From the IMG/VR virus record IMGVR_UViG_3300024520_000049, positions 62,001-126,000 of that record: a stretch of DNA of 64,000 bases. One strand, 5' to 3'. This DNA is from a virus. The notes beneath the pieces are model-generated. The model saw only the letters and a program-made list of their open reading frames with translations, did not search any database and was not told the DNA's origin. Positions 827 through 50,650 of the stretch are shown here, one piece after another. Every line of letters starts with the position of its first letter. Position 1 is the stretch's first letter. The position numbers and the translations under genes were made by a program.

Positions 827-830
827 CTTG

Positions 831-2503: not shown

Positions 2504-3309
2504 TGCGCGGAATTGAATGGCTAAATCATAACCAGTATCGCAGCTATCCTTTTGTTGAGGATCAGGTGCTGCAGGGTGCGTCTGGCGGTGACACGTTGGA
2601 CCTCCCGCTGGATACGCTGTTGGATCTGACAGTGCTCAGCTACTCCGGCAGCGTTGCCGAGGTGCGTTTGATATCTATAGATATACATCCAGCTGGTGCC
2701 TCGGCTACGTTTACGTTTACAATTTCGGGCGGGCCTGTGGTCATTGTGGTGTCGGCGGCGATTACCCCGCCATTCGAGGGAGAGGTGCGTGTGGACACAT
2801 CCCCAGGCCACGCAGGCCTTTTGCTGCGTCCAATTTTTGGGGCAGGAATTGGTGAAATTACGGGAAATGCCGCGAATTACGGGAAAACCTTCCTTTTTGA
2901 CCTGCTTATGGAGCACAGCACCACAATCGCGGCATCAAACTCGTGGGTGACGTCTATTGTGGGCATCGAGCCTGGAGGCGGCGAAACAGAGTTTCTCGGC
3001 GACGTGCTGCTGGCTGAGGGCTACAACATCATTCTATCCTTCAACAAATCGCGAAATACCATCGAGATTAAAGCCGCTGTAGGTGCCGGGCTTGGTGTGC
3101 CTTGTGAACCTATGCTTGGCCCGCCGGCAGACTGTGAAGAGGGTATCTATTATATCAACGGACGCCACCCAGACTGGTACGGCCGATTTACGCTGGAAGC
3201 TACTGCGGGTCTGAAGGTTACAGAGGACGCGTCGGCAAACAAGATTATCTTCACTTCGGACATAGATCCCCTGCGTCCGCAGTGTAACGACCCATCAGGA
3301 GATCCGTGA
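2503..3309 (+). CDS. virion/tail-like protein, paralog C of the W-N-x-N family
   Basis: ATG overlaps the upstream stop as TAATG. It begins GIEWLNHNQYRSYPFVEDQ, the clearest example of the family motif. The C-terminal third has a Cys-Pro segment (GVPCEPMLGPPADCEEG) followed by YYINGRHPDWYGRFTLEA, a divergent copy of the ING-x-x-PD-x-x-G-x-(F/I)-T module. 268 aa, beta-rich, no membrane segment. Same inferred role as its paralogs: a tail-tip or fibre-connecting component. Confidence 0.6.
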   Translation: MRGIEWLNHNQYRSYPFVEDQVLQGASGGDTLDLPLDTLLDLTVLSYSGSVAEVRLISIDIHPAGASATFTFTISGGPVVIVVSAAITPPFEGEVRVDTSPGHAGLLLRPIFGAGIGEITGNAANYGKTFLFDLLMEHSTTIAASNSWVTSIVGIEPGGGETEFLGDVLLAEGYNIILSFNKSRNTIEIKAAVGAGLGVPCEPMLGPPADCEEGIYYINGRHPDWYGRFTLEATAGLKVTEDASANKIIFTSDIDPLRPQCNDPSGDP

Positions 3310-4085
3310 TGGCTAGAGACCCCTTTGAATACGTGAGTGGCTGCAGCGGCCCAGACGTGGACTTGGACATCCTGCCGACCGGCTTCCCGATCTGCTCATT
3401 TCCGACGTTCACCAACCCGACGTTCTGCCCCAACCTTATTGATGTGACGGTGCCAGATATAGCGACCCCACCGATGTGTCCGTGCATACCAACGATATAT
3501 TTGACGCCAGAGAGCAAGATCGCAGTTACAGCGACAGCTGATCCGAGCATGACCTTTGAGATCCGACCAGGCACCGCTGACTGCTGCGAGCCTACTTTTG
3601 ACGCGACGTTTGATATAGAACTCCCTTGCCTACCCTTCGATGTGACTTTTGCAGGGACCATAAATACTGGAAACATCGACCTGCAATTAGTGAAGAATTC
3701 TTCTGAGTGTAAGCTGGAGCTGGACATCTCGATCAGCTTGCCAGACATCCTCGGACCAACTGGACCGACAGGGCCAACTGGACCTACCGGAAGTTTTTCC
3801 GGCTCAGGGAGCTTCACTTTCCCCGGAATATCCATTACATTTATAATATCCACTACGTGTGTGACTCCAGCGGACCCCACATGTGTCGGCGCTCACATTG
3901 GTGGCGAGGTTGTAACAGGGTCGGATGGATGCGGGAACCCAACGGATGTAACTATTGTGGTTGAAGGAATTATAGCGATACCAGTACCTTCTGGCGTAAG
4001 CTGCTGCCCCACGCCGATACCAACGTATGATCCAACATACGCGCCAACATACGCGCCAACGTATTGTCCGACGTACACACCTTAA
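3309..4085 (+). CDS. cysteine-rich virion-like protein with collagen-like and PTY repeats
   Basis: ATG at 3309 overlaps the previous stop (TGATG); a GTG lies three bases upstream. The N-terminal half is rich in Cys and Pro (CSFPTF, CPNL, CPCIP). In the middle there are four Gly-Pro-Thr triplets ending in Gly, a short collagen-like stretch. The C-terminus ends in five near-identical PTY-x units (x = D, A, A, C, T). Short collagen-like segments are common in phage fibre proteins, where they can form trimeric stalks. The Cys content is unusual for an intracellular protein. Role in tail decoration or host contact is inferred. Confidence 0.55.
   Translation: MARDPFEYVSGCSGPDVDLDILPTGFPICSFPTFTNPTFCPNLIDVTVPDIATPPMCPCIPTIYLTPESKIAVTATADPSMTFEIRPGTADCCEPTFDATFDIELPCLPFDVTFAGTINTGNIDLQLVKNSSECKLELDISISLPDILGPTGPTGPTGPTGSFSGSGSFTFPGISITFIISTTCVTPADPTCVGAHIGGEVVTGSDGCGNPTDVTIVVEGIIAIPVPSGVSCCPTPIPTYDPTYAPTYAPTYCPTYTP
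3753..3791 (+). repeat. collagen-like Gly-Pro-Thr repeat
   Basis: Four consecutive GPT triplets closed by a Gly, encoded by degenerate nine- to twelve-base units inside the gene at 3309. Confidence 0.85.
4020..4082 (+). repeat. 12-bp tandem repeat encoding PTY-x units
   Basis: Five tandem 12-bp units of the type CCAACATACGCG encode PTYD, PTYA, PTYA, PTYC and PTYT at the C-terminus of the collagen-like protein. The two PTYA copies are identical in DNA, which fits recent slippage or expansion. Confidence 0.85.
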
Positions 4086-19111: not shown

Positions 19112-20938
19112 ATGGCGAATCTCAAAAAACTTGCAGAGATCTTCGAGGCCTGTGCTAAAGAGGCGCGCATCGGCGTGGCGGAGGTCTCAGACGGCCGTTC
19201 CGGGCATGTGGATGATAACGAGGAGGAGGTTCTGGAGGAGGCGACCACGGCACAGAAAGAGGGCCAAGACCTCACAGCTGAAGTCGAGGAGGGTGGCTTT
19301 GGCGCCCCTGACGAGGTAAGCACAGGTGAGCTGGCGACCTACGCCATCACTGAGCAGGATAAGGATGACTTCGCACCTGATGTAAAGGATGCCGCGTTAA
19401 AAATCACCGGCACCCCGGCGCAGCCCAAGAGCGAGGAGCAGGCTGAAGCCGGCAACTACCGCAAAGGCCACGCGAAGATGCACGGACTGAGTATCGCGAT
19501 TGAGAATGCCAAAGGGCAGACGCGGAGTGGGACTGGTGCGGACGGGAAGACGTGGACATCAAAGATGTATGCCCATTACGGGTACATCAAGCGCACGCTC
19601 AGTAAAGCTGACGGAGATCACATAGACGTCTTCATAGGCCCTGATGAGAAATCAGAGATCGTGTTTGTTGTTAATCAGAACAACCATGGCAAGAAGACTT
19701 TCGATGAGCACAAGTGCATGCTTGGGTACAGCAACGAGGAAGCTGCGCGGAAGGGCTACCTCGCCAACTACGAGAAGGGTTGGGATGGTGTTGGCAGCAT
19801 TACGCCGATGACCATTGCACAGTTTAAGTGGTGGATCCGCCATGGGGACACTTCAAAGCCCGCGAAGGCTATCGTGAAGAAAGCCGGTATCCCTATGAGC
19901 CGGATCATGAAAGCCATCGGATTGCCGGCACTTGGCGCCGGCGGGCTGCTCGGTGGCGCTGCTTACCACCAGTCTCAGCCGTACAAAGGCGACCCAGAAG
20001 CCAGCCGCTGGTCAGTGCACATGACCAGGCGCACTCTCAACAAAGCGCTAGAGCAGCTGCAGCGCGGGAGCGCTGATGTTGACGTGGCTACAGGAAGGCA
20101 CCGTAAAGCGATCCCGCTGTCCAGAATAAACGAGGCTGCGCTAAAGCACCTCAACTATACACCCACCGCGGTGGCGATTCCCGAACGTGGGCAGCAGCAG
20201 CTCATTACGCACCGCCGCCGACCTGACGCGAAGCGCCCCCATTTTAACCCACACGTCCATAAACATAAGAAGAACTGGTTTGTCCACATCGATAAGGATC
20301 CAGCGCTGACTCTGGCGCTGGAAGAGGCGAAAGACTGGCCTTCCCGGATGAAGGCGCTTACTCGCGGTATGAAGCATATTTTCCATGAGGGTATCCCCGG
20401 CGGGATGCTGTACCTGAAAAACATGATGCAGAATAAGCCGACGTTTGAAGACTTCATGAAAATGCCCCGCAACCAGCGCCGTATGGAATTTTCAGAACCC
20501 GGCGAGTCCAGTTTGCTCTCTGACCCGCATAAACATGCGTCTTCACCACTCCGCCCAGGCAACACGACTATAATGATGCAGGTAGTGAGTGGTGACGAGA
20601 AGCGCGCGGAGCTGCTTGTCGAGGTTGCCGAAACTCAGGCGAATGCCGCCAAAGGGCTTAGCTTCGTACCGGAGATGCCTTCTGGGTATGGTATGTTGTT
20701 CAAAACTGCCAAGTCTTTCTGGATGCGCGGGGTCAACTTCGACCTGGACATGGTCTTTATGGATAAAACAGGACAAGTTTTGGAGATTCAGCGTATGAAG
20801 GCCCCTAAGCAGGGCCATTTACCGATGAATACCTACCAGCCTACTGTGAAGCAGGCTACACTCTCATTAGAGGTCCCCGCAGGATGGTGCGAGCACTATT
20901 CTGTAAAACCGGGGGATCAACTCACCGTGGTCGCGTGA
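19112..20938 (+). CDS. multidomain protein with phage InPase domain and C-terminal DUF192
   Basis: 608 aa, RBS AGGAGCAACC. Residues about 113-242 match the InPase (inorganic pyrophosphatase-like) domain of phage polyvalent proteins: GNYRKGHAKMHGLSIAIEN, then AHYGYIKR (H155-Y156), DGDHIDVFIGP (169-177) and FDEHKCMLGY. A short hydrophobic segment (about 263-285) and a basic His-rich middle follow. Residues about 490-608 match DUF192: AAKGLSFVPEMP, GMLFKTAKSFWM, DLDMVFMD and a final VKPGDQLTVV. Polyvalent proteins of this kind can be packaged and injected; that use here is inferred from the fusion and the structural neighbourhood. Confidence 0.75.
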   Translation: MANLKKLAEIFEACAKEARIGVAEVSDGRSGHVDDNEEEVLEEATTAQKEGQDLTAEVEEGGFGAPDEVSTGELATYAITEQDKDDFAPDVKDAALKITGTPAQPKSEEQAEAGNYRKGHAKMHGLSIAIENAKGQTRSGTGADGKTWTSKMYAHYGYIKRTLSKADGDHIDVFIGPDEKSEIVFVVNQNNHGKKTFDEHKCMLGYSNEEAARKGYLANYEKGWDGVGSITPMTIAQFKWWIRHGDTSKPAKAIVKKAGIPMSRIMKAIGLPALGAGGLLGGAAYHQSQPYKGDPEASRWSVHMTRRTLNKALEQLQRGSADVDVATGRHRKAIPLSRINEAALKHLNYTPTAVAIPERGQQQLITHRRRPDAKRPHFNPHVHKHKKNWFVHIDKDPALTLALEEAKDWPSRMKALTRGMKHIFHEGIPGGMLYLKNMMQNKPTFEDFMKMPRNQRRMEFSEPGESSLLSDPHKHASSPLRPGNTTIMMQVVSGDEKRAELLVEVAETQANAAKGLSFVPEMPSGYGMLFKTAKSFWMRGVNFDLDMVFMDKTGQVLEIQRMKAPKQGHLPMNTYQPTVKQATLSLEVPAGWCEHYSVKPGDQLTVVA

Positions 20939-20941
20939 TTT

Positions 20942-20995
20942 TTGATCGACGCGATACTATATTATAAATACCCCGCCATCACGAGCAAAGGCGGG
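20942..20995 (+). promoter_or_regulatory. candidate promoter plus leader hairpin
   Basis: TTGATC (20942), a short 15-bp spacer and TATAAA (20963-20968) in an A/T-rich stretch are followed by a hairpin CCCGCC/GGCGGG (20972-20995) that has no U-tract. It sits 24 bp before the first gene of the second fibre block, so it may set that block's transcription or stabilise its mRNA 5' end. Confidence 0.4.
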
Positions 20996-21019
20996 AAATA
21001 AAAACCTCGGAGAATTGAC

Positions 21020-21412
21020 ATGTCACAAATTGTTGGAAGAAAGAAACTTGAAGGCGTCCCAGACTCTACCGGCGGAGGCCTCACCCCCGCGGATCAAAAC
21101 CATACTCGCGTATCTGCGGAGCCCATTGACCATTTGAACAATGGCGGCCTCGCCGTCATGGAGTACATCGGTGCTATGGCGCAGCGCGTGGACGAGACTG
21201 GGGCTCCAGGTGTTACCTATGCCGCTGAAGCGCTGCCAGGATCCGCGAATACTGACGCGAAGTGGCGTATTCGCCGCGTAACAGTAGCTGGATCGATAAC
21301 CACTATTAAGTGGGCAACGGTTGCAGCCGTCGTCGGACCGCCCGCCGTGCCAGCTCTACCTGCGACGTTCGCCCACGTCTGGGATGATCGTGCTACTCGG
21401 ACCTACACCTGA
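21020..21412 (+). CDS. hypothetical virion-like protein
   Basis: 130 aa, RBS CGGAG. No named domain. It contains a TPADQNHTRVSAEPIDHLNNGG segment, a patterned middle strand (WRIRRVTVAGSITTIKWATV), and a hydrophobic Pro/Val-rich stretch (VVGPPAVPALPAT). First gene of the second fibre block, 18 bp before the next; probably part of the same virion structure. Confidence 0.5.
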   Translation: MSQIVGRKKLEGVPDSTGGGLTPADQNHTRVSAEPIDHLNNGGLAVMEYIGAMAQRVDETGAPGVTYAAEALPGSANTDAKWRIRRVTVAGSITTIKWATVAAVVGPPAVPALPATFAHVWDDRATRTYT

Positions 21413-21430
21413 TAATTTCGGAGAGCCGCT

Positions 21431-22087
21431 ATGGGGTTTCTTTATGACATTCTGCTCCGCCGCTTACGCACAGACGAAGGTGCGGGTGGCGGACCGCCAG
21501 ATCCGCATACTCACGGCATTGATGACATCACGGACCTGGAGAATCCACTGCAGGATAAGGGGGTAATCGCTCTGGCGGCAGATTTTCCGACGCCCGCTGA
21601 GGTTGATGGTGCGTGGCTTTACCGCGTTTCTGCGGACGTTATCGACAATGATGGCACGAAGACCAACACGGGTCAGGCCTTTTTTGCCGGCGAGCAAATT
21701 TTCTGGAATGGCGTAGATTGGACGGTGCTTGGCGCCGCCGCGAATGACACTTGGCCACTTATGGTAGGACGAAACAGCGCGACGGTATCAAATGTGTACC
21801 TACGCAGCCCTGACCGTGTGCCAACAAACTTGTCTGGTTTTATTGTCCCCGTTGATTCGACAATTTTTGCAATCGGCGCCGGCACCAATGGTGCGGAGAC
21901 CTGGGTTGCGGAAGTGCGTAAGAACGGCGTGGCAGCTGTCATCGCGTCGCTAAGCATGGCAGCAGAAACGAAGAAGTACACAGACACGTTGAACGTTGAC
22001 GTTGACGCCGGGGACGAGATACAGATGTACTGTAACGGCACAAATATCAACCGCCCTGCTATGTTGGTGCTACTTAGGAGACGGTAA
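21431..22087 (+). CDS. tail-fibre-like protein
   Basis: 218 aa. The N-terminal region has PDPHTHGIDDITDLENPLQDKG, the HTHG/D-type connector common in phage fibre N-termini. A beta-rich region follows, with a C-terminal segment (VAEVRKNGVAAVIASLSMAAETK, then VDAGDEIQMYCNGTNINRPAMLVLL) that looks like a jelly-roll type receptor-binding domain. RBS GGAG. Likely a fibre or accessory receptor-binding protein. Confidence 0.6.
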   Translation: MGFLYDILLRRLRTDEGAGGGPPDPHTHGIDDITDLENPLQDKGVIALAADFPTPAEVDGAWLYRVSADVIDNDGTKTNTGQAFFAGEQIFWNGVDWTVLGAAANDTWPLMVGRNSATVSNVYLRSPDRVPTNLSGFIVPVDSTIFAIGAGTNGAETWVAEVRKNGVAAVIASLSMAAETKKYTDTLNVDVDAGDEIQMYCNGTNINRPAMLVLLRRR

Positions 22088-22090
22088 TTT

Positions 22091-23329
22091 ATGGCGTATG
22101 ATATAAAATTGACAACCACAGGGCTGCTCTCCCCTGTGGTTATCGATGACTTCGGAGAGAAGAAATTTGCGCATCCGACGGTCGATTATAGCCTGATTCC
22201 TGAATTTACTTTTGAGGAGGTTCAGGCCTCTACGGATTTGCAAGCTCACGTCGACGCAGGCAATGTTACACTTACCGACAGTGGTGGTAACAGTATAACT
22301 GACGTGTCTCAGAGTAGCAATGAGCATGAGCATGCCGCTTCGGATGTCACAGACTTTGACACAGAGGTGTCGAACAACGTAGATGTAGCCGCAAATACGG
22401 CGGCGCAGCATTCTCACACGAATAAAACCGAGCTGGATCTGGTCACTGATGGTGATCATGATGTAAGAACGGACAATCCGCATGGAACAGCTATCAGCAA
22501 TCTGGGCACTGGCACCATCGCAGAACTGAACACAGCGATCACTGACGCTACGTTGGACGGCCACTCGCACTCGAACAAAGCACAGCTCGATTTGGTGTCC
22601 GACGGTGATCATGATGTAAGAACGGACAATCCACACGGAGTCACGGCAGCGCAGACTGGCGCGGACCCGTCTGGGACGATTAACTACACACACCCGAACC
22701 ACACTGGGGACGTCACCTCTGTGGCTGATGGGGCGCAGACAATTGCGGCTAACGCGGTTACAAACACTAAAGCTGCTGACATGCCTACGCTGACAATCAA
22801 AGGCAACAACACAGGTGGTACCGCAGATCCTAAGGATTTAACAGTAGCCGAAGCGCAGTCTCTGCTGGGAATAACCGCAGGGGTGGCGGGACTTGCAATC
22901 AGCACTATCAACGGGCAGGCGGTACTCACTCTGGAGGACACCACGAGGGCCAGCAAGAAGTTGTCCGTCAGTGAGATGTCAGTGATGTTTGCTGAAGGTA
23001 CTGTCGGCGATGATGACTGGCTGGCTGTTGGCATAGTGCTGGACGCCGATGCGGGCTACATAATGCCTCTAAATGCCACGATTGTAGGCATTTCGGTATG
23101 GTGCGACAACGATAATTCCTCAGCCAAGGAGCTGGACTTGTACATCGACGCTGCCCTAGACAGCACTATATACACTTTCCCGGGCGGCGGCAACGAGGTA
23201 AAAGCGTCAGACATGACTTTGAACATTGACGTCGCACAAAATTCAAAAATCCGAGTTCGTGCTGGCACAACGGGTGGGAACATTCAGGACACCGTTGTTC
23301 AGTTACATATTAAGTGGAGGGCCGCATAA
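22091..23329 (+). CDS. His-rich tail fibre protein
   Basis: 412 aa. Residues about 105-200 contain a two-copy unit, HSH(T/S)NK-x-(E/Q)LDLV(T/S)DGDHDVRTDNPHG, plus NYTHPNHTGDV. Histidine pairs of this kind can bind metal along trimeric fibre shafts, as known for T4-like fibres. The C-terminal half (from about 300) is a beta domain. It starts 3 bp after the previous stop and is followed by a coupled gene. Likely fibre shaft plus tip. Confidence 0.7.
   Translation: MAYDIKLTTTGLLSPVVIDDFGEKKFAHPTVDYSLIPEFTFEEVQASTDLQAHVDAGNVTLTDSGGNSITDVSQSSNEHEHAASDVTDFDTEVSNNVDVAANTAAQHSHTNKTELDLVTDGDHDVRTDNPHGTAISNLGTGTIAELNTAITDATLDGHSHSNKAQLDLVSDGDHDVRTDNPHGVTAAQTGADPSGTINYTHPNHTGDVTSVADGAQTIAANAVTNTKAADMPTLTIKGNNTGGTADPKDLTVAEAQSLLGITAGVAGLAISTINGQAVLTLEDTTRASKKLSVSEMSVMFAEGTVGDDDWLAVGIVLDADAGYIMPLNATIVGISVWCDNDNSSAKELDLYIDAALDSTIYTFPGGGNEVKASDMTLNIDVAQNSKIRVRAGTTGGNIQDTVVQLHIKWRAA
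22451..22632 (+). repeat. pair of 29-bp perfect direct repeats in fibre gene
   Basis: The 29-bp sequence starting GGTGATCATGATGTAAGA occurs at 22451-22479 and 22604-22632, in the same frame, encoding DHDVRTDNPHG-type repeats. Being identical at DNA level while the flanks diverge, it could act as a recombination hotspot for module gain or loss. Confidence 0.85.
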
Positions 23330-36856: not shown

Positions 36857-37253
36857 TAAAGCAGAGAAGGTCTCTAAGACGATTACCCAGGAGCGTTGGT
36901 ACACAAGCTACCTGGACGCCACAAATGACGCGAAAGACTTCATCAACACTGAAGGTGTTTTCAATGACCGTCAGCCCCGCCCCCGTGAATGGGATCTTGT
37001 TGTTGAGGTTGTGAAGGCTCAGCTCTACAAGGCCGAGACCGGCGGCGATAAACACAGGGTGGCGTACACCATAAACATCACCGGCACCGAGGACCGTATC
37101 AAGAAGTGGGGCAAAGAGTGCCGTAAGCTCTACGGGACAAACAAGAACTCGCTGCACATGTCTAACAACACGGATCTGGCGGCTTGTCGAGCTGAGGCTT
37201 CTGAACAGAAGGCAGCTTACAAGGCCTCTCAGCAGGAGTCAGCTGACGAGTGA
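36849..37253 (+). CDS. hypothetical, between the SbcD- and SbcC-like genes
   Basis: 134 aa, overlapping SbcD-like by 8 bp and SbcC-like by 4 bp (GTGA). Highly charged and helical, with a Lys/Glu-rich start (AEKVSKTITQERW) and an acidic Ser/Glu end (ASQQESADE). No family recognised. Tight overlap on both sides suggests an accessory protein of the nuclease complex. Confidence 0.5.
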   Translation: MSNKAEKVSKTITQERWYTSYLDATNDAKDFINTEGVFNDRQPRPREWDLVVEVVKAQLYKAETGGDKHRVAYTINITGTEDRIKKWGKECRKLYGTNKNSLHMSNNTDLAACRAEASEQKAAYKASQQESADE

Positions 37254-39415
37254 TTATTACAAAAATCACTCTTGACGGTTACCGGCAGCACCAGGAACTC
37301 GTCAAAGAGTTCACTGGGCCGGTGACTGCCTTCATCGGGGAAAACGGGACTGGTAAGTCTCATGCACTCGACGCCATACACTTCGGACTCACCGGTGATC
37401 TCCCCAATCAGAAGAAAGAGGAGATGATCAGCTGGGGCCGCGAGAAGGGGCAGGTGACTGTCGAGTTCGAGCATGAAGGTTACGAGGGGAAGGTCTCACG
37501 AGCTCTCCACAAAGCCTCCGCGTCGTTCTCGTACCGTGACACCACTTGTACCGGCGTACGCAAGGTCAACGAGGCCGTGGCACGCTGCACAGGTATGGAC
37601 AAGGAGCTCTGCCGCAATGGCATCTTTGTCCGCCAGGCGGAGATTGACGCAATCCTGTTTACGACGCCGGCAGATCGCCAGGTGGCGTGGCAGCGACTCA
37701 TCGGCCTCGCTGATGTACCTAAGATCCATGTGAAGTTCGGGCAGACTGTAAGTGCGCTGCCGGAGATTCAGGATTACACAATAACCATCGCCGAAGGCCT
37801 TGAGCGCCTGAACGAGATGGACCAGGAGATGGAAGACCTGGAGAACTGCCTGAAGATTACTAAATCTGGCAGCACCGGCGATATGGCGGCCCTGAAAGCG
37901 CGTACTGACGCACTGCGTCAGCTTCAGGGGGACATTCGGGGCACTGCACGGTTCTCCCAGGATCTTGCTACTGCCCGCGACCAAGTGGCCGCGAAGACCA
38001 AGACCCTCACTGAGCTGTCCGCGGTGGGGTTGGTGAATGTCCAGGAGACCGACGCCAAAATCGCAAACTTGGCGGAAAAGGCTGCAAACGTCAGCACGTA
38101 TTTGAGGGACGCAGCTTCGCACAAGAAGCACAAAGGTGTGCTGGATGGCTTGGCGTTGCCGGAGGAGGGCGCTGTGGAGAAAGTCTTCGCAGAGGTTGGT
38201 GAGCTCCAGATCGCTGTTGGCGAGGCACGGACCCAGCTAAGCATCCTGGGGTCTCTAGCGAAAGCTATGGAAGCCAACCCCAGATCCGCTGTGTGCATTC
38301 TTTGCGACCAGCCTCTCGATCCATCTACGGATGTCCTGTTCAGACTGACCAAAAAGCACGAGCTTTGGGACAGCAAGAACGTGGCAGCTACTGCGGAACT
38401 TAGCGGGAAGTCGCAGCAATGGACGATGCTGAATAACCAAGCCCAGGAGTACGCGGCCAAGGTGGCTGCTACGACGACGATGCTCGAGGACGCTGCAAAG
38501 GGTATGGCGACCATGCGAGATCGCATTGAGGGTGAAACTACGCCAGCACAGCTGGCGCAGGTCTCGAAGGTAGTTGGAGAGCTAAAGGTAGCCAGAGACC
38601 ACGCTGTCCGAGTGGGTCAGCAGCTTGAGAACGCGCAGGCAGATCTGGCGAGCTGGCAGGAGCATCTCACCGACGTGGGAGCTCGTGCCGACGCAGCAAT
38701 CGAGAAGATTCAGGCGGCAATGGCTGAACTTGGAGTAACGGAGCCAGGTTCGGTCGGCGCCGCTCTGGATGAGGCGGGCGGTGCAGAAGCCAAAGCGCAG
38801 GAAGTTCAGCTGGAGCTGGAGCGCCTGCTCGGTAAGCAGCAGCAGCTGGCTAAGGGTAGAGCCAGGCTTCAGGAAACCCTCGAGGACCTGAAGCAGCGGA
38901 AGGCGCGCGAGGCGGATTACGTCGAAGCGCTGACCACCCTGCGCAACGCCCGGGACTGGTTCCACCACAGTCACGGACCCAAGATACTCATAGCCAAGCT
39001 ACTGGGTGAAATAACACGAGGAGTCAATGACTTCCTTGAGCGGTTTGGATCGACATTCGGGGTCGTCGCTGACCCTGACCTGATGTCATTCCGCTATTAC
39101 TATCACGATGGCAGGCCTATGCCTGACGAGTTCCCCCCGGCTTCAGAACTATCTGGAGGCGAGAAAATCATCCTTGCGGTGTCATTCAGGTTTGCTTCAT
39201 ACTGCCTGTTTGCTGGACGTGTCGGGCTGCTAAGCCTGGACGAGCCGACAGTGTATCTCGACGATCGCAATGTCGGCAAATTCTGTCAGATGATGGAGCG
39301 GGTGAAGGAAGTAGCTACGGCTATGGATCTTCAGATCTTTCTGTCAACCCATGAGAGGAGTGTGATGCCCTATGCAGACACTCTTATTGATTTCGGCGAA
39401 AACACAACAGTATAA
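37250..39415 (+). CDS. sbcC: SbcC/Rad50-like ATPase
   Basis: 721 aa with a GTG start overlapping the previous stop (GTGA); AGGAG lies upstream. Walker A GENGTGKS (30-37), long coiled-coil arms, a zinc-hook CILC at 349-352, the ABC signature LSGGEK (634-639) and Walker B LLSLDEPTVY (D664-E665). It would form a DNA-end-tethering ATPase with the SbcD-like partner. Shorter than bacterial SbcC, as usual in phages. Confidence 0.9.
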   Translation: MIITKITLDGYRQHQELVKEFTGPVTAFIGENGTGKSHALDAIHFGLTGDLPNQKKEEMISWGREKGQVTVEFEHEGYEGKVSRALHKASASFSYRDTTCTGVRKVNEAVARCTGMDKELCRNGIFVRQAEIDAILFTTPADRQVAWQRLIGLADVPKIHVKFGQTVSALPEIQDYTITIAEGLERLNEMDQEMEDLENCLKITKSGSTGDMAALKARTDALRQLQGDIRGTARFSQDLATARDQVAAKTKTLTELSAVGLVNVQETDAKIANLAEKAANVSTYLRDAASHKKHKGVLDGLALPEEGAVEKVFAEVGELQIAVGEARTQLSILGSLAKAMEANPRSAVCILCDQPLDPSTDVLFRLTKKHELWDSKNVAATAELSGKSQQWTMLNNQAQEYAAKVAATTTMLEDAAKGMATMRDRIEGETTPAQLAQVSKVVGELKVARDHAVRVGQQLENAQADLASWQEHLTDVGARADAAIEKIQAAMAELGVTEPGSVGAALDEAGGAEAKAQEVQLELERLLGKQQQLAKGRARLQETLEDLKQRKAREADYVEALTTLRNARDWFHHSHGPKILIAKLLGEITRGVNDFLERFGSTFGVVADPDLMSFRYYYHDGRPMPDEFPPASELSGGEKIILAVSFRFASYCLFAGRVGLLSLDEPTVYLDDRNVGKFCQMMERVKEVATAMDLQIFLSTHERSVMPYADTLIDFGENTTV

Positions 39416-39427
39416 AGGATTAAAACT

Positions 39428-39727
39428 ATGAACATCAACATGCACATTATGGATCGCACAGGCGACGCGCAACTCATCGTTTCGGACGACGCAGCTCTGA
39501 TTGGCACGAAAGGTGGCGACAACAAGGAAAAGGATATCATCGATCAGGCCGCGGCGCAGCAACGGATCCTGGAGGAGTTCGGTAAAGGTAAATGGTTGCG
39601 AGTTGTGAAAAGCTCTGGGGAGTCTGAAACCATTACGGACGTAACCGACCTTACCGACGAGCGGATGAACAACATCTTCACAGATGCATTCGAAGTCGGT
39701 ATGTTCAACGCCATCGTTGGCGGATGA
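39428..39727 (+). CDS. candidate ubiquitin-like modifier ending in Gly-Gly
   Basis: 99 aa ending AIVGG with the stop directly after, so the di-glycine is the natural C-terminus. The N-terminal pair of strands (MNINMHIMDRTGDAQLIVSD) followed by a helix (DQAAAQQRILEEF) and C-terminal strands fits a beta-grasp arrangement. It overlaps the JAMM protease gene (ATGA), which overlaps the E1-like gene (ATGA). Such Ubl-JAMM-E1 triads are known in bacterial ubiquitin-like and PRTRC systems. Sequence similarity to ubiquitin itself is not visible; assignment rests on the GG end and the neighbours. RBS AAAGGA. Confidence 0.5.
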   Translation: MNINMHIMDRTGDAQLIVSDDAALIGTKGGDNKEKDIIDQAAAQQRILEEFGKGKWLRVVKSSGESETITDVTDLTDERMNNIFTDAFEVGMFNAIVGG

Positions 39728-40176
39728 GGGTAACACCCTTCCCGAGGGGCCTCCTCGTTCGCAGCCGGAACTACCTGTTGGCGGATCCGACTGTTGAGCG
39801 AGGGGCACTCATTACAACTGATTGGGGCTTAACGCCCTTTACGAACATAGCCAATCCTCCGGTCTCACGCATTCGCATGGGGCCGGAGGATTTTGGCGTC
39901 TATGCGGACATGATGATGTTCGGCGCAGTGTGGGGCTGGGTGCACTCCCACCCTCACTGGCCGCCATTTCCGAGCCACACGGACATTATGAATCACCCCG
40001 GACCTATCACCATGCTGATCTACTCCATACCTATGGACGCGTTCGGTTTATACAGCGCGGAGGAGGTCAACGCTCTGTACGAGCTTTACACCAATGGCCC
40101 GGGGACAGAGACGACGATGATCGACGAGATTGACAAGTGGAAAGAGACAAAAGGTAAGGAATTTATACGGTTATGA
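39724..40176 (+). CDS. JAB/JAMM (MPN) metalloprotease
   Basis: 150 aa. The JAMM zinc motif is complete: HSHPHWPPFPSHTD, with H74, H76, S84 and D87; a nearby Glu (E25) could serve as the catalytic acid. The N-terminal PFTNIANPP and MGPEDF segments resemble phage and PRTRC-A type JAB proteins. JAMM enzymes remove ubiquitin-like proteins or process their C-termini. The tail-assembly K-type JAB of lambdoid phages is an alternative family, but that protein is fused to NlpC/P60 and lies in tail operons, unlike this one next to E1. Confidence 0.82.
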   Translation: MRVTPFPRGLLVRSRNYLLADPTVERGALITTDWGLTPFTNIANPPVSRIRMGPEDFGVYADMMMFGAVWGWVHSHPHWPPFPSHTDIMNHPGPITMLIYSIPMDAFGLYSAEEVNALYELYTNGPGTETTMIDEIDKWKETKGKEFIRL

Positions 40177-40784
40177 AAGACAGCACAGAACGCACGGCGA
40201 TTATCGGCGCAGGAGGTATCGGGAGTCATTTCTTGCGACTCCTGCACCAGATGATCACACATAAGCAGTTGGGCGCAGATGTCCGATTTGACGATTTTTG
40301 CGTGTTCGACTTTGATGTCGTTGAGCCCAAAAATTGCCGGCACCAGGACTACGACCTTACGGAGGTAGGCCTACCCAAAGCCGCGGTGATGACTCTGCGC
40401 TATGATATACCCCACCAGGTGAAAGCGTTCATCGAGGATGACGTTCCTTTCTGGGGATCCTATATTATTTGCGCAGACAATGCTGCGGTTCGCCGCATCG
40501 TATTTGAGCACGCGGTGCAGACAAAGAAGAGGTTTCTCGACATGCGGTCAGAAGGCGATATGTACGCAATCTACACAGACCGCTGCCCGTTGGAGAAACT
40601 CATGAGCTCTCTGGGCCCTGATCCGTCTTCAGAGCAGGGCTTCTCATGCCAGCGCCCTTCTGACGTAGCGCAGGGCATCATCCAACTCGGCAACTTCTTC
40701 GCGGCGCCCGCGGGGATGGATGTCTGGCTGCGGATGTGCCGCAAAACGATATACCCAGCTGCACGTGTGCAGTCAATCATATGA
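40173..40784 (+). CDS. ThiF/E1-like ubiquitin-activating enzyme
   Basis: 203 aa, ATGA overlap with the JAMM gene. Rossmann nucleotide loop IIGAGGIGSH (10-19), acidic adenylation segment FDFDVVEPKNCRHQ (45-58) and CADNAAVRR (100-108) define an E1/ThiF adenylation domain. A C-terminal Cys159 (EQGFSCQRPSD) could be the thioester Cys. It would adenylate the C-terminal Gly of the upstream 99-aa protein. The short size fits PRTRC-type ThiF proteins rather than full ThiF/MoeB. No E2-like gene is obvious. Confidence 0.82.
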   Translation: MKDSTERTAIIGAGGIGSHFLRLLHQMITHKQLGADVRFDDFCVFDFDVVEPKNCRHQDYDLTEVGLPKAAVMTLRYDIPHQVKAFIEDDVPFWGSYIICADNAAVRRIVFEHAVQTKKRFLDMRSEGDMYAIYTDRCPLEKLMSSLGPDPSSEQGFSCQRPSDVAQGIIQLGNFFAAPAGMDVWLRMCRKTIYPAARVQSII

Positions 40785-40794
40785 GGAGGCTACT

Positions 40795-42636
40795 ATGGCG
40801 AGAAAACACATAAAGTTCGAAGACAGATCCATCTGCTACGACAAAGACTTCCTTACTGTGACCCCGTTCAAGGGTGAGGGTAAACGAGATCTGCTGGTTA
40901 TGATGGATGATGACGGGGAAGCAGTGTCGCTCTCCTCCTTCAAAGAGGTTGCAGTCAGTCGGGCCCAGTTCCGGCCTGCCGCGGTTGATCCGAATCTGAC
41001 CGTGCAGGTTGCCAACTCCCGATCGCACACAAATCGGTACATTTTGGTGGCGAGAGTCACCGAAAACGACAAAGGCACAGTACGGGCTATTTTCTCAAGT
41101 AGCGCCGACGATGTGCCCACGCTCCTTGTGTCCTCAGCGGAGGAGTGCTTTAACGCGCTGGACCCCGGCGCGTGTGTGATTATAAAGAGGGGCTCGTACG
41201 ACGCTGCGCTGGAGTGGCGCCCACTCCACACACTTGGGGCATATAAGGCCACAGCCGCGAGCCGCCGCACGCGCCGCACGGCGTACCAAAAAGGCCTTGG
41301 CGAGATCCGAAAAACGTACTTCGATGGGTTCGTTAGTGGAGCTATACCGGAGATCTTCATTGGGATATTTTCAGTGAGGGGGAAGGTGTTCACGTACTCT
41401 GACACGACTATCGAGGTGGGCCGCTGGGCCGCAATGATGGACGCGCTTAATGCGGTAGGTGCGCACACAAACGACAACAGAGCTCGCCTGGGCCTGGTCC
41501 CGTTTGAGTCTTGGATACACACGATCATACGAGCCGTTCCTGACAATGTTGCGGTAATTATCAACAAAGTCCGTGTGACTTTGTCCTCTAAACTCACAAA
41601 CGCGGCATCTCCAGCCACGCTGTGGTACGTGAACGGTAAGAAGATCTCAGCCCCAGACGTTGATGCTGTTCTTGCTCAGGCTACGTGTTTCGGGGGTGAC
41701 CAAAAAGGATACGACGACTTCGTTAAGAGTGTGTCACGAGTATCCATGAAGTTTCACCGCCTTGTAGCGTCAGGCATGGCCTTTAAGTCCACAGTGGCTA
41801 AGGCGGTAGGGGAGGGCATCAAGTCCGCTGTTATGTGCGACCGTGCTCTGCCAGCAAACAACAACATGCCGTCTACGGTCAACGTGGACGTAAGTATGAT
41901 GTTCCCCGTACGCAAGAAACCCGGGAAACGCTCCGAGGTGCGCATTGCTGGCGCTTGGCGGAAGATCACAAATATTGACACGCTGGCGCGTCGTTCGGGT
42001 GAGAAGTCTTACAGCCATGGTCGGCGGTATCCGGTGTTTTCGGGCATGGACGAAATCACGAAAACGCAAAGGACGCTGCTCAATCACCTGGTTCTTCTAG
42101 ATAATTGGATCGAAGATGAAGATCAAATTATCCCCCGCTCTTGGACGACATTTGGGCAGGATGCTTATCGTGGTGGCGTGGGTTTTTACAATCTGCGGCC
42201 AGGACACTTAGATGATATCAAACGGGTCGTCGGGCAGTTCGAGACCTCAGTTGCAGACTCGTTCCGGGAGCAATACCATGCATTGCGAAAGTCCAGAGAG
42301 CTCCTGGGCCGGGTAATCGAACAGGAGCGGGTGGTTGTAACTCAGAAAGACGCCGAGGTTTATTACGACGTCACCGGATCAAGTGGGCTGGTGTACCGGG
42401 TCAAGGAAAGTTCCGGAGCGACCATAATCAAAAGCACTGGCGCCCATCTGTGCGTCGTCAACGGGCACGGTAATGACATTGCAGGGTATGACTACATCGT
42501 GTCCCTGATCAGTGCTTTACGCCATGACCTGATGACCGCGAACAAAATACACACAGTGAAGAACGCCCTGGCCCGAAAGGCGAAGGACGAGGAGAAAGAG
42601 CTTCTCAACAGGCAGAAGCAAAGAGCTGCCTCGTGA
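40795..42636 (+). CDS. large unknown protein linked to the ubiquitin-like cluster
   Basis: 613 aa from ATG 40795 (RBS AGGAGG, 10 bp after the E1 stop). No recognised domain. It has a compact N-terminal part (EDRSICYDKDFLTVTP, DLLVMMDDDGEAV), a long alpha/beta middle and a helical, charged C-terminal end (KAKDEEKELLNRQKQ). The strong RBS and tight spacing suggest co-expression with the modifier, protease and E1. It might be a target, ligase-like factor or unrelated; nothing in the sequence decides. Confidence 0.5.
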   Translation: MARKHIKFEDRSICYDKDFLTVTPFKGEGKRDLLVMMDDDGEAVSLSSFKEVAVSRAQFRPAAVDPNLTVQVANSRSHTNRYILVARVTENDKGTVRAIFSSSADDVPTLLVSSAEECFNALDPGACVIIKRGSYDAALEWRPLHTLGAYKATAASRRTRRTAYQKGLGEIRKTYFDGFVSGAIPEIFIGIFSVRGKVFTYSDTTIEVGRWAAMMDALNAVGAHTNDNRARLGLVPFESWIHTIIRAVPDNVAVIINKVRVTLSSKLTNAASPATLWYVNGKKISAPDVDAVLAQATCFGGDQKGYDDFVKSVSRVSMKFHRLVASGMAFKSTVAKAVGEGIKSAVMCDRALPANNNMPSTVNVDVSMMFPVRKKPGKRSEVRIAGAWRKITNIDTLARRSGEKSYSHGRRYPVFSGMDEITKTQRTLLNHLVLLDNWIEDEDQIIPRSWTTFGQDAYRGGVGFYNLRPGHLDDIKRVVGQFETSVADSFREQYHALRKSRELLGRVIEQERVVVTQKDAEVYYDVTGSSGLVYRVKESSGATIIKSTGAHLCVVNGHGNDIAGYDYIVSLISALRHDLMTANKIHTVKNALARKAKDEEKELLNRQKQRAAS

Positions 42637-42717: not shown

Positions 42718-43170
42718 ATGAAGGAAGCGAAATTCACAATTGAATTTATCACACACTGTCTCGCTGTCAGCAGTGGGAGCAAAAAAGATTCCTGTGAGTA
42801 CTTTGACAGAGATAGTAAAGACCGTATTATTTGGAAGCAGTCTTGGTGGTACACTGCGCTGAATAGTACAATTTCGATGTATAAGATCCGCGGCGTTAAG
42901 CCTAACGATTTTAACATTTCGCTCTTAGTAGAAGCAAAAGTCCAAATCTTCAAGCGTAGGTATGGACAAAACGGATTCCGCAAGCACGAGGCCATAATGC
43001 CAGGAACACGGGTCACGTTCAATGCAGTAGTAGCAGATAATGTTACGGAGTCCACCCTCACACACATCCTGGAAAAAATGGGAGACTATGTCGGCGTCAG
43101 CCCTTACGGCCACAATCTCGGATATGGAAAATTCGTGGTCATTGACGTTGAACTTGCTCCAATGAGCTAA
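42718..43170 (+). CDS. hypothetical protein, RAMP-like C-terminal pattern
   Basis: 150 aa. The C-terminal half (GTRVTFNAVVADNVTESTLTH, then ILEKMGDYVGVSPYGHNLGYGKFVV) has a strand-helix layout with a glycine-rich G-x-G-x-F loop that recalls RAMP/ferredoxin-like RNA-binding proteins and a common phage protein of unknown role. The match is weak and could be chance. It lies between the unknown 613-aa gene and the UvsW-like helicase. Confidence 0.45.
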   Translation: MKEAKFTIEFITHCLAVSSGSKKDSCEYFDRDSKDRIIWKQSWWYTALNSTISMYKIRGVKPNDFNISLLVEAKVQIFKRRYGQNGFRKHEAIMPGTRVTFNAVVADNVTESTLTHILEKMGDYVGVSPYGHNLGYGKFVVIDVELAPMS

Positions 43171-43205: not shown

Positions 43206-44714
43206 ATGATTAACGTCCACATTGGGGACTCCTATGTCCTCGTCACCCCCCACGTGCCAGAAGATATTAAGCGAGTGCTTACATATTGGCACCGTAGTTT
43301 GAAGTATGACGAAGAGCAGCACCAACGGATCGCAAAGGGCGAATCTCGCCGACTCTTCACCTATAACATGGGCATCGACCCCACAACCAACGTGCTCGGA
43401 GAGCAATTGGTAACCTTCCCCGGCTTAGCCAATAAAATTATGGCCAAGCTCCGCAGCACACAGACACCGTTCAAGGTGCTGGACCAAAGAACCCCGCGCC
43501 CGCCGTACGACCTGAAGAAGGCCTTCTCACGGTTACGAGATTATCAGCACCACTGCGTACATGACGCGCTGTGGGCCGGCGGCGGCATCATCTCCTGCCC
43601 AACAGGCTGGGGGAAAACTCACGTTATGGGGGCGCTGATTCGCGCCCACGATCGTGACGATATGGCTCTACGCAACACACCTATGACAGTGGTCATCACT
43701 CCCGGGGTGGACCTTGCAAAAAAGAACTACAGGGATCTGGCAGAGGATATTCTACCAGATCGCGACGTGGGGCTTATTTGTACGGGCGCAAAGCGGTACT
43801 CCGACGACGTACAAGTCGTCACTCCTGATAGCCTTCACAAGGTTAACCTCAAAGAGTGTGGCCTACTTATTTACGACGAGGTCCATACTCTGACAGAGAA
43901 GCGCGCCGAGAGGGTGATGGAAGCTACTCACGCCATGAGGTATGGAGTAAGCGCCACACCGTCGGGACGCTTTGATGGCGCGGACCTGATGACTGAAGGT
44001 GTCTTCGGTCCGGTGGTGTACCATCGTACCTACCAAGAAGCTATCGAAGACGAGGCGGTTGTCCCGATCCGGGTCTACTGGGTAGAGGTACCCCCGCCAG
44101 ACGGCTGGCTGAGCTGCAGGTCCAAAGATGCCACCTACCGGCACGGTGTTTGGCGCTATGCGCCGATGCATCAAACTGTTAGCGACATATGGAACAAGAT
44201 CCCTGATGACATGCAGACCTTAGGCATTGTCGACAAGATCGAACACATGAACCGGCTGGCCCCGTTCCTAGACGGGACGACCATGGTTCACGCTGAGACG
44301 TCAGCGGCAGCACTGACGAAGAAACGCTTCGCCAATATCTCTGCAGTGTCAAAGAAAGAGCGTGAGGCCGTGTACAAGAAAATGGAGAGCGGTGCGCTGA
44401 AACGCACTGTGAGCAGCGGGATCTATCGGACGGGTGTGAACTTTCCCAAGCTAACTGTGTTGGTGAACTTGGCCGGTATGGGTAGTGAAATCATTGCGGG
44501 GCAGTTACCTGGGCGGGCCAGTCGAAATATTGAAGGTAAAGAATGTGCCTTCCTCATCGATTTCTGGCGGCCCTGGGATATAGTTGTCAAGGAAGATTTA
44601 ACCTCCAAACCCAGCTTCATCTTCAGAGATGATATGAAGCGCGAGCAGATGTACGCTGCTCTTGGCTTTGAACAGCAGTGGGTAGGCTCAGACCTATCAA
44701 AGGTGGTATTTTAG
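43206..44714 (+). CDS. uvsW: SF2 helicase, UvsW-like
   Basis: 502 aa. Superfamily-2 motifs in order: Walker A CPTGWGKT (131-138), YDEVH (Walker B, D224-H227), SATPSG (248-253) and a late QLPGRASRN motif VI. UvsW-type helicases unwind D-loops and branched DNA and control recombination-dependent replication. The stop overlaps the next gene as TAGTG. Confidence 0.85.
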   Translation: MINVHIGDSYVLVTPHVPEDIKRVLTYWHRSLKYDEEQHQRIAKGESRRLFTYNMGIDPTTNVLGEQLVTFPGLANKIMAKLRSTQTPFKVLDQRTPRPPYDLKKAFSRLRDYQHHCVHDALWAGGGIISCPTGWGKTHVMGALIRAHDRDDMALRNTPMTVVITPGVDLAKKNYRDLAEDILPDRDVGLICTGAKRYSDDVQVVTPDSLHKVNLKECGLLIYDEVHTLTEKRAERVMEATHAMRYGVSATPSGRFDGADLMTEGVFGPVVYHRTYQEAIEDEAVVPIRVYWVEVPPPDGWLSCRSKDATYRHGVWRYAPMHQTVSDIWNKIPDDMQTLGIVDKIEHMNRLAPFLDGTTMVHAETSAAALTKKRFANISAVSKKEREAVYKKMESGALKRTVSSGIYRTGVNFPKLTVLVNLAGMGSEIIAGQLPGRASRNIEGKECAFLIDFWRPWDIVVKEDLTSKPSFIFRDDMKREQMYAALGFEQQWVGSDLSKVVF

Positions 44715-47863: not shown

Positions 47864-50650
47864 ATGGGTACAGTAAACTTTGAGTTGATAAGTAATTACA
47901 AAAAATTGCCCGATCCAGGACCCGCGCCGTCACGAGCTGGTGATGTTGACGGAGTCCGGTGGATAGGCTACACGCACCTCCCGGTAGAGGGGGCGCGCAC
48001 AATAATGTTCGTAGGGCAGAATCCTGCCCGCGATGAGCTGCGTATGCAGGCCCCCTTCATAGGGCCCGCGTCCCAGCTTCTGCTGGGGGAGGTCAAGAAA
48101 TTAGGCCTCAGCAACTACACCACACATTTCACCTATGCTGTGAAGTATGGCACTAAAGATTTCGGCACGCCCAAAGTGTCCGACATCCGCGCCTGCCAGA
48201 AAGCGCTGTATGATGAAATCTATATGGTACAGCCGGACGTGATCGTACCGTTAGGCGCGTCTGCGCTGCGAGCTGTAGCTGGTAGCAAGTACAAGATATC
48301 AGCTTACCGCGGGGCCGCGTTTGAGCTGGACTACCTGCCAGGCATAAAGGTCGTGCCGACTTGGCATCCTTCTTACATCATGCGGAATGTTGAGCACCTT
48401 GACGCGTTCCGGGAAGACCTCGCCAATGCACTCACAGTTCTTGGTGGGGGCGTGTTAAAAAGCGGGGAGGTTGGAGAGTATGATCTGATCACCAACCCTA
48501 TGGAGCTGCAAGAGTTCTTGCTCAAGCTCGTAGACGCGGATAAAGATCAGCCGTTCATAAGAATAGCTGTTGACTGCGAGTGGCACGGATCAGAAGCTCT
48601 GCGCAATGACGGGTATTTGCGGCTGATCCAAATGACTGGCGCGGGTGGTGCGCTGACAGGCGTTATCAGGCTGTACCCTGAGGGCTCGCCAGACCGTCCG
48701 GTCGAACCCATGATACATTACCCTGACTGCATCAGCGTCACTGACACGGTGGATATCCTAAACCAGTTCTTGGGCGCCATGGGGTCGCGGGTTGGCATCG
48801 TAGGCCACAATGTGAAGGCTGACGGTATGTGGCTCTTGCACTATGGTGTGGACATCCGCCCGCATGTGTTTTACGACACCATGCTGGCGGAGCACCTCAT
48901 CTCGAATCTAGGACCATTCGGCCTATCAGAATTGACGCTGAAATACACGGACATGGGCAGGTACGATCTGCCTGTGATCGACTTCACCCGAGAACACCCG
49001 GAACTGATCGAAGGGGGCTACGGCTTCATACCGGACGATCTTCTGCTCCCGTACGCGGCAGGAGATACGATGGCGACGTTCAGAGTGATGGAGGCGCAAA
49101 AGGAGGCCATCCAGCGCTGTCTGGTTCCGCGGGGGCTACAAGGTCAGTACCCGTCGCTCCTCGCGGCCACGGTACGGCTGGGCTCCCACCTCTATGAGCT
49201 GGAGCGGACCGGCATACCCATAGATTTGGTGCGCCTGGAAGAGCTAACAGCTGCCTATAACAACAAGCACCGGCAGCTGGTGAGCCAGATGCAGGCCATG
49301 GCGGCCGAGATGGGCTGGCTAGAGTTTAATCCGGGGTCAACGTTGCAGGTCCGAAATCTGCTCTTCAATACTAAAGAACACAATGGCCTGGGTTTAACCC
49401 CGGTAAAAAGTACAGGCAAGCGTTCAAAATCCTGGGAATGGGTAATGAGCCAATCCCCCGCCAAGCAGGCAGAGTACAACGCGTCCACGGACAAGGCCAC
49501 ACTTGAGCTGCTGGAAGAATATCACCCAATGGTTCGGCATCTGCTGAACATACGACGAGTTGATGTGATCTGTAAGAACTTCCTTAGAGAAGATAAGACA
49601 GGCGGCATACCCGGCAACATCTATGCGGACGGGCGCATCCACCCAGGCTTCGGCCAGCTGACAGACACTGGCCGGCTCAATAGCCGCAACCCGAATGTCC
49701 AGAACTGGCCGAAAGCCAGCGAAGGCTACATCGCTGAAATATTCTCGGGGGAAGAGGCCCCGAAGTCGCTGCGGTCTATTATTCTGGAAACCTTGCCAGG
49801 ATGGGTGATCATTGAGGCGGACTTCAAGCAGGCTGAGTTGTTTGTTCTTGGGGGCATGGCAGATGATCTGGTCATGCTCTCTGCACTAAACACACCTGGG
49901 AAGGATCTTCACGACATTACAGCGGTGGACTCATTCGGTCTGCAAGTGTTTATGCCAGACGGCTCTGCTGTTGACGATAATGCCATGCTGGCCCTTGCGG
50001 CCACAGACATGGACGCATTCGTGAAGTTGCAGAAATCGTTGGTTTATGTAGACCCTAAAGGTAAGAGGATGACCAGAGATGAGTTCAAATCTACCATCAG
50101 GGTATCGGCGAAAGCCATCAACTTCGGTATACCTTACGGACGTGGTGCAGGCGCAATTGCTATGCAGGTAAATGCCACCACGGGCCTTGGAGTAACGAAA
50201 GAAGAAATCCAGATAGGTCTGGATGGGTGGAAATCCACCTACAAAGTGGCGTGGGCGTGCATGGTGAGATATCAAACCGACGCAAACACGCTGGGTTATG
50301 TTGAGAGTCCGTGGGGGCGCCGTCGGCACTTCCGCAAAGCTACGAACAGAGCAGAAGAGGGTGCGAATGCGCGCGAGGCTGCTAACTTCCCTATCCAGTC
50401 GACTGTTGCCGATACAATGGCGATCGCTGCAGACCGGCTGAGTAACATACGACAGAGGGAGGGCCTGAGTTTTAGGCTCTTCAATCAAGTACACGATGCG
50501 TTCCTATTCGCCCTCCCCGAGGGTGAAGTAGAAGCGACGACCAAAGCGATTCACGAAGGTATGGGCGGCATTGACATCCCGATGCCGTCTGGGAAGCCTC
50601 TACGCCTTGAGATAGACGTAGATGTGTTCACTAGATGGGGTGAAAAGTAA
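47864..50650 (+). CDS. family A DNA polymerase fused to a uracil-DNA glycosylase domain
   Basis: 928 aa. Residues about 30-210 form a UDG family 4-type domain: VGQNPARDELRMQAPFIGPA (50-69) and WHPSYIM (H168). A 3'-5' exonuclease follows, with AVDCEWHG (D237) and VGHNVKADG. The polymerase carries motif A EADFKQAEL (D653), motif B KAINFGIPYGRG (from 750) and motif C QVHDAF (D878). UDG-PolA fusions are known in phages such as SPO1. It copies DNA and may excise or check uracil in it. Starts right after the primase stop. Confidence 0.9.
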   Translation: MGTVNFELISNYKKLPDPGPAPSRAGDVDGVRWIGYTHLPVEGARTIMFVGQNPARDELRMQAPFIGPASQLLLGEVKKLGLSNYTTHFTYAVKYGTKDFGTPKVSDIRACQKALYDEIYMVQPDVIVPLGASALRAVAGSKYKISAYRGAAFELDYLPGIKVVPTWHPSYIMRNVEHLDAFREDLANALTVLGGGVLKSGEVGEYDLITNPMELQEFLLKLVDADKDQPFIRIAVDCEWHGSEALRNDGYLRLIQMTGAGGALTGVIRLYPEGSPDRPVEPMIHYPDCISVTDTVDILNQFLGAMGSRVGIVGHNVKADGMWLLHYGVDIRPHVFYDTMLAEHLISNLGPFGLSELTLKYTDMGRYDLPVIDFTREHPELIEGGYGFIPDDLLLPYAAGDTMATFRVMEAQKEAIQRCLVPRGLQGQYPSLLAATVRLGSHLYELERTGIPIDLVRLEELTAAYNNKHRQLVSQMQAMAAEMGWLEFNPGSTLQVRNLLFNTKEHNGLGLTPVKSTGKRSKSWEWVMSQSPAKQAEYNASTDKATLELLEEYHPMVRHLLNIRRVDVICKNFLREDKTGGIPGNIYADGRIHPGFGQLTDTGRLNSRNPNVQNWPKASEGYIAEIFSGEEAPKSLRSIILETLPGWVIIEADFKQAELFVLGGMADDLVMLSALNTPGKDLHDITAVDSFGLQVFMPDGSAVDDNAMLALAATDMDAFVKLQKSLVYVDPKGKRMTRDEFKSTIRVSAKAINFGIPYGRGAGAIAMQVNATTGLGVTKEEIQIGLDGWKSTYKVAWACMVRYQTDANTLGYVESPWGRRRHFRKATNRAEEGANAREAANFPIQSTVADTMAIAADRLSNIRQREGLSFRLFNQVHDAFLFALPEGEVEATTKAIHEGMGGIDIPMPSGKPLRLEIDVDVFTRWGEK

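Follow-up and report, generated by a model that had tools for sequence, protein, structure and literature searches.

Does a small gene for a protein ending in Gly-Gly, set beside genes for a JAMM metalloprotease and an E1-like enzyme, mean that a virus runs a ubiquitin-like protein (Ubl) system of its own, and what would such a system act on? In bacteria, Ubl systems have mostly been described from cellular or defence operons; in phages, the known forms are chiefly tail proteins. The genes in question lie in a 64,000-nt stretch of DNA (the window) that covers positions 62001-126000 of the 190,498-bp IMG/VR record IMGVR_UViG_3300024520_000049. We read the locus, with a probability of roughly 0.6, as a four-gene viral cassette for Ubl activation and conjugation in which a 613-aa protein, here called BP, fills the place of an absent E2.

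Four adjacent genes form the cassette

Three ORFs on the forward strand fill window positions 39428-40784 and are coupled by ATGA overlaps at 39724 and 40173, as the initial annotation had described. They encode the 99-aa Ubl (39428..39727), a 150-aa JAMM/MPN+ metalloprotease (39724..40176) and a 203-aa E1-like adenylyltransferase of the ThiF fold (40173..40784). That annotation had ended the unit at 40784 with three genes; the gene that starts directly after the E1 gene (40795..42636, forward strand) also belongs to it and encodes the overlooked BP, a conserved fourth component with an invariant cysteine, giving the order Ubl-JAMM-E1-BP. When profiles built without the window sequences were run on all 2,642 ORFs of the record, their best matches were these four adjacent genes: the profiles for E1 (E 8.7e-38), BP (E 5.3e-18) and JAMM (E 9.7e-5) each had the window gene as their sole match, and the Ubl profile ranked the window Ubl first, with a weak score (E 0.045). 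We are highly confident that Ubl, E1 and JAMM form a functional unit, and equally so that BP is a true component of the cassette.

The E1-like enzyme and the JAMM protease

The window E1 exceeds the ThiF (PF00899) cut-off of 28.1 with 33.7 bits (E 2.8e-8). It contains GAGGIGS at residues 12-18, D46/D48, N54, Q58, K69, D102, R107 and Cys159, and N54, K69, D102, R107 and C159 occur in 74/74 relatives. The initial proposal of a ThiF/E1-like enzyme with Cys159 (codon at 40647-40649) as the candidate catalytic residue holds. The same annotation had made the presence of adenylation residues decisive for its reading: the set is otherwise complete, but the arginine of the NLxRQ motif of ThiF/MoeB, kept in E. 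coli ThiF and in the PRTRC ThiF of phage Arash, is replaced by His57. Among the 74 relatives this position is Tyr in 47, His in 23 and Arg in 3, and Tyr or His in place of the arginine is, judged from these alignments, a mark of this E1 lineage. With the arginine replaced in the window E1 and by Tyr or His in 70 of the 74 relatives, adenylation by these enzymes may differ from that of canonical ThiF/MoeB. The window E1 is 33% identical to that of a viral locus designated L185 (E 6e-23), and a maximum-likelihood tree places it, with a long branch, inside the BP-associated viral clade (support 96/90), whereas PRTRC E1s form a separate clade (99/95).

The window JAMM lies just above the Pfam cut-off for Prok-JAB (PF14464; 25.1 bits against 25, E 1.7e-5). 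Its catalytic glutamate and its HxHP...SxxD motif, reported as complete at the outset, are indeed all present (E25, H74, H76, P77, S84 and D87), and all six residues are 100% conserved in 66 relatives. The JAMM of G001, the nearest relative with a cassette, is 45% identical to it.

The Ubl and its precursor tails

The 99-aa protein ends exactly in Gly-Gly (...NAIVGG), as first noted, a C-terminus that just 4 of the 210 genes called in this 190-kb record have. We regard it as a putative Ubl, for which a beta-grasp fold would be expected, on the grounds of its position, its GG end, its first rank with the relatives-only profile and its homologue in G001, which ends in KGGASA. It is the most divergent member of a set in which GG stands at or near the C-terminus in all 35 recognised relatives. 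An AF2 model from a two-sequence alignment has low confidence (pLDDT 58) and the order strand-helix-strand-strand-helix-strand; this low-confidence model had no structural match in the PDB. The Ubl profile likewise had no significant match in the PDB, and HH comparisons of the Ubls were not significant against ThiS and MoaD of K-12 or against the PRTRC or G013 Ubls. About half of the loci have no recognisable Ubl in the flank examined, and these mostly have a short BP and the E1 before the JAMM.

The C-termini of the Ubls vary with the presence of the protease. Beside a JAMM gene, 26/31 carry an unconserved tail of 1-9 residues after the GG, whereas all four from JAMM-less records stop exactly at it (Fisher p 0.0024, from a small sample and uncorrected for kinship, the JAMM-less loci representing perhaps two lineages). 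In the whole records of these four loci, which may be fragments, no JAMM of this type was detected, and the same search found the JAMM in three control records. JAMM presence thus tracks the Ubl tails in this small sample, and this pattern makes the JAMM a likely processing protease; we predict that it probably trims the Ubl precursor.

BP, a conserved partner with an invariant cysteine

BP has no match in Pfam, PHROG or NCBIfam. A profile made from the large proteins of three small-E1 loci (L185, L186 and L187) does pick up the window BP (E 3.5e-11), and its C-terminal domain contains Cys553 (codon at 42451-42453), Asp566 and Asp578, which are 100% conserved in 68 relatives. Among known families BP resembles DUF7737 alone, and that below threshold (best E 0.0017, 9/22 members); an AF2 model of all 613 residues from the single sequence reached a pLDDT of 33. 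BP matches no E2 profile and contains no known E2 motif, and Cys553 is invariant; we put forward BP as a candidate E2-like transferase at somewhat less than even odds.

Spread among uncultivated viruses

A first scan of IMG/VR with the E1 alignment as query returned small-E1 relatives with related gene sets: L185 has BP, a Ubl ending in LIGG and E1; L186 has BP, a Ubl ending in LTGGQ, JAMM and E1; and L187 has BP, JAMM and E1, with genes for an SSB-like and a RecA-like protein behind them. A second scan yielded 80 loci; in all, the scans of IMG/VR found this small E1 at about 70 viral loci that are not identical to one another. BP is found in nearly all of them and JAMM in most; with iterated profiles, BP, JAMM and E1 occur together in 68/80 counted loci, some of which are duplicates of one virus. 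Besides the window's order we observed Ubl-BP-JAMM-E1, BP-E1-JAMM and E1-BP-Ubl. Phage forms had been called rare; the IMG/VR scans reveal them to be widespread among uncultivated viruses.

Sequenced phages gave a different picture. In 50,697 phage records, tblastn found no match for the window E1 and JAMM or for the BP and E1 of L186. Pattern scans of viral contigs with single E1 or JAMM sequences had no match, nor did a JAMM search of genome contigs, where the E1 alignment gave four weak matches (~31% identity over about 100 residues); in a scan with an SbcC alignment, P-loop proteins drowned the signal. We found no published description of the cassette in a literature search that covered sources other than subscription papers and preprints. 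The four-gene cassette is not rare, yet it is undescribed in the literature searched.

Genomic context and related phages

In the window, the cassette sits in a replication module among SbcCD, helicase, primase and polymerase genes. On the same strand it is preceded by an SbcC/Rad50-like ATPase gene (37250..39415; phrog_77, E 9.8e-26) and followed by genes for a conserved 150-aa protein (42718..43170) and a UvsW-type DNA helicase (43206..44714; phrog_16, E 5.2e-43), all three of them neighbours outside the cassette. The major capsid protein ties the record to Salmonella phage Arash and to Vibrio phages D69, D148 and D181, with further relatives at >40 IMG/VR loci. Two related genomes, G004 and G006, retain SbcC as well as the 150-aa gene and the UvsW-type helicase, with different genes in between and no cassette; the cassette therefore occupies a slot, closed on one side by the 150-aa gene, whose content varies within a conserved replication module. 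G001 has SbcD, SbcC, Ubl and JAMM; its contig stops 0.7 kb past the JAMM gene, and that stretch contains no E1.

Elsewhere, an SSB-like gene (recognised by eye and unmatched in Pfam) and then a RecA gene (E 4.9e-23) come after several of the cassettes, and others adjoin genes for a TFIIB zinc ribbon (E 6.1e-9) and a Cpn60 chaperonin (E 8.8e-42), as at L238 4129-9283 and L263 3370-10122. The TFIIB and chaperonin neighbours suggest that some carriers of the cassette may be viruses of archaea.

We made several further observations in these genomes. In G001 (L023 9560-9610), no canonical start precedes the conserved region of the JAMM, and the gene is in the -1 frame after the Ubl's GGTGGGGC; it may have an odd start or be expressed as a frameshifted fusion with the Ubl. 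In the conserved 150-aa protein (window 42718-43170; L096 8381-8890; L097 9070-9531), a glycine-rich loop at the C-terminus, GVSPYGHNLGYGKF, is reminiscent of RAMP/Cas proteins (csf2 match, weak at E 0.056). A family A DNA polymerase at window 47864-50650 has an N-terminal region resembling uracil-DNA glycosylase. In G000, a portal-like gene (by eye; 704-3823, L002:704-3820) has an intein-like insert with a HINT and LAGLIDADG-looking region and a phrog_36001 match at residues 73-439, and an RNA polymerase beta-subunit-like gene (20183-22492, L003:183-2489; phrog_3015, E 2e-13) lies in the structural region, as in Arash, whose particles abound in phage RNA polymerase subunits.

A model for the cassette and its alternatives

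From the observed gene content, linkage, motifs, co-conservation and precursor tails we infer a model that extends to the fold of the Ubl, the chemistry, the role of BP and the targets. In this model, JAMM would trim the Ubl precursor behind Gly-Gly where a tail is encoded and would probably also remove Ubl from its targets; the window Ubl is encoded already mature, which would leave de-conjugation as the role of JAMM there. E1 would bind ATP, adenylate the C-terminal glycine of the Ubl and probably form a Ubl thioester on Cys159, and BP would accept the Ubl on Cys553 and hand it to target lysines, replacing the missing E2. We speculate that the targets would probably be phage or host proteins of early DNA replication and recombination, the setting in which the cassettes usually lie, although replication proteins as targets remain a doubtful proposal. 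That the cassette conjugates proteins, as opposed to transferring sulfur, is the reading we favour with some reservation. We would give rather poor odds to the whole of a broader claim, namely a distinct Ubl-conjugation lineage in viruses of bacteria, and probably of archaea, with BP as E2, tagging of replication and recombination proteins, and JAMM maturing and removing the tag.

Two alternatives are the strongest rivals of this model. A ThiS/MoaD-like GG protein could be adenylated and thiocarboxylated by the E1 in a sulfur-carrier relay, with BP using the sulfur, for example in the modification of a nucleic acid or cofactor, and with JAMM only maturing the carrier. The E1 fold is nearest the ThiF/MoeB types, a single E1 and a GG protein occur without a canonical E2, and a JAMM that matures a GG precursor fits equally well; yet no rhodanese or cysteine desulfurase is seen in the cassettes examined, the examined conserved neighbours are DNA recombination genes and not metabolic ones, and the window retains JAMM despite its mature Ubl, which suggests de-conjugation, so we regard a sulfur relay as unlikely. 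We hold it similarly unlikely that BP is the main target or effector, with E1 placing the Ubl directly on BP to switch its activity and JAMM reversing this. Such a scheme would suit a protein that is nearly always present, no other constant partner being seen, and E1-only conjugation without an E2 is established for archaeal SAMP proteins, but the invariant residues of BP are Cys and Asp, not Lys, and better suit a catalytic thiol.

Two other proposals concern the purpose of the cassette. Tagging or untagging of host immune proteins during infection, such as CBASS cyclases or Bil targets, would accord with the variable slot between conserved genes in relatives, a position typical of accessory genes, and with the homology in kind of the JAMM and E1 of bacterial CBASS; we judge it improbable, since many viruses have the cassette in a conserved recombination neighbourhood and not in an anti-defence island. 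Lambda-type tail assembly by a TAPI Ubl and a TAPK JAB is hinted at by the PHROG matches of the window JAMM, which are tail proteins (E 1.3e-5). We reject it as extremely improbable because an E1 is present, an NlpC/P60 domain is not, and the genes around the cassette are those of the replication module (SbcC, helicase, primase and polymerase); the initial annotation had argued against a tail role from the position beside SbcC and outside the tail genes, and that position holds.

If the four-gene conjugation model is true, this compact set of Ubl, E1 and JAMM genes, which has a new partner with a cysteine and in many uncultivated viruses is linked to recombination genes, would mean that viruses themselves run protein tagging during infection. 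The wide absence of the cassette from GenBank phages indicates how much of such biology cultured phages do not reveal. The natural variation in precursor tails, the losses of JAMM and the invariant cysteines make the mechanism directly testable with small proteins.

Comparison with known systems

Bacterial Ubl-E1-JAB operons and Ubl-JAB pairs of phage tails were described by Iyer et al. 2006 (PMC1779556), who did not describe this cassette. Their operon type 6d, PRTRC, consists of a Ubl, a JAB, an E1, an E2-like protein and a helical protein (PMC1779556). Like PRTRC, the viral cassette is an operon of a mobile element that unites a Ubl with a JAB and an E1, and PRTRC_ThiF is the best NCBIfam match of the window E1 (1e-7). 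The analogy drawn initially holds to the extent of a cousin: the window E1 does not fall within the PRTRC clade and scores 31.6 bits against the TIGR03736 cut-off of 144.75, and the 190-kb record has no match to PF14460 (Prok-E2_D/PRTRC_B), so we reject both PRTRC membership and an E2-D gene elsewhere in the record. The window Ubl, moreover, ends in GG and PRTRC Ubls in TGTKG, and BP takes the place of the PRTRC partners. Full PRTRC-type cassettes do occur in Arash-like relatives at another locus, near the large terminase gene (L025 11282-15719; L089 5645-10055; L090 1640-7026; L094 2922-7589), with one to five tandem Ubl repeats that have TGTKG ends. Particle preparations of Arash contained the products of its cassette of this type (gp246, 247, 248, 249 and 251), in a proteome that also includes many non-structural enzymes (PMC10585845). 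PRTRC_A and ThiF are already annotated in the records of Bacillus phage KLEB27-3 and Acinetobacter phage ME3. G013 and G030 (L086 5489-10968; L087 3840-7007) contain other JAB-E1 cassettes; the one in G013 has a tandem Ubl with the end KGNN, and both encode large proteins whose C-termini look E2-like by eye (APHxxxxGxxCFG, HPHxxGGxxCWG), a resemblance that implies no kinship with BP.

In Bil operons, E1 and JAB enzymes act on C-terminal glycine conjugates, and the same holds for Cap2 and Cap3 of type II CBASS (PMC10097602). Both are bacterial defences with a fused or separate E2 and a dedicated or phage target, whereas the window cassette is viral and has no E2 homologue. The TAPI-TAPK pair of lambda and T1 also joins a phage Ubl, with a conserved C-terminal glycine, to a JAB peptidase, its presumed processing enzyme (PMC1779556), but has no E1 and lies within the tail genes. 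ThiS-ThiF, MoaD-MoeB and archaeal SAMP-UbaA, the last of which makes conjugation by an E1 alone possible, share with the cassette a small GG protein served by a single E1-like enzyme. The viral cassette differs from all three in having no visible sulfur-transfer partner, in the Tyr or His that replaces the NLxRQ arginine, and in its strict linkage to JAMM and BP.
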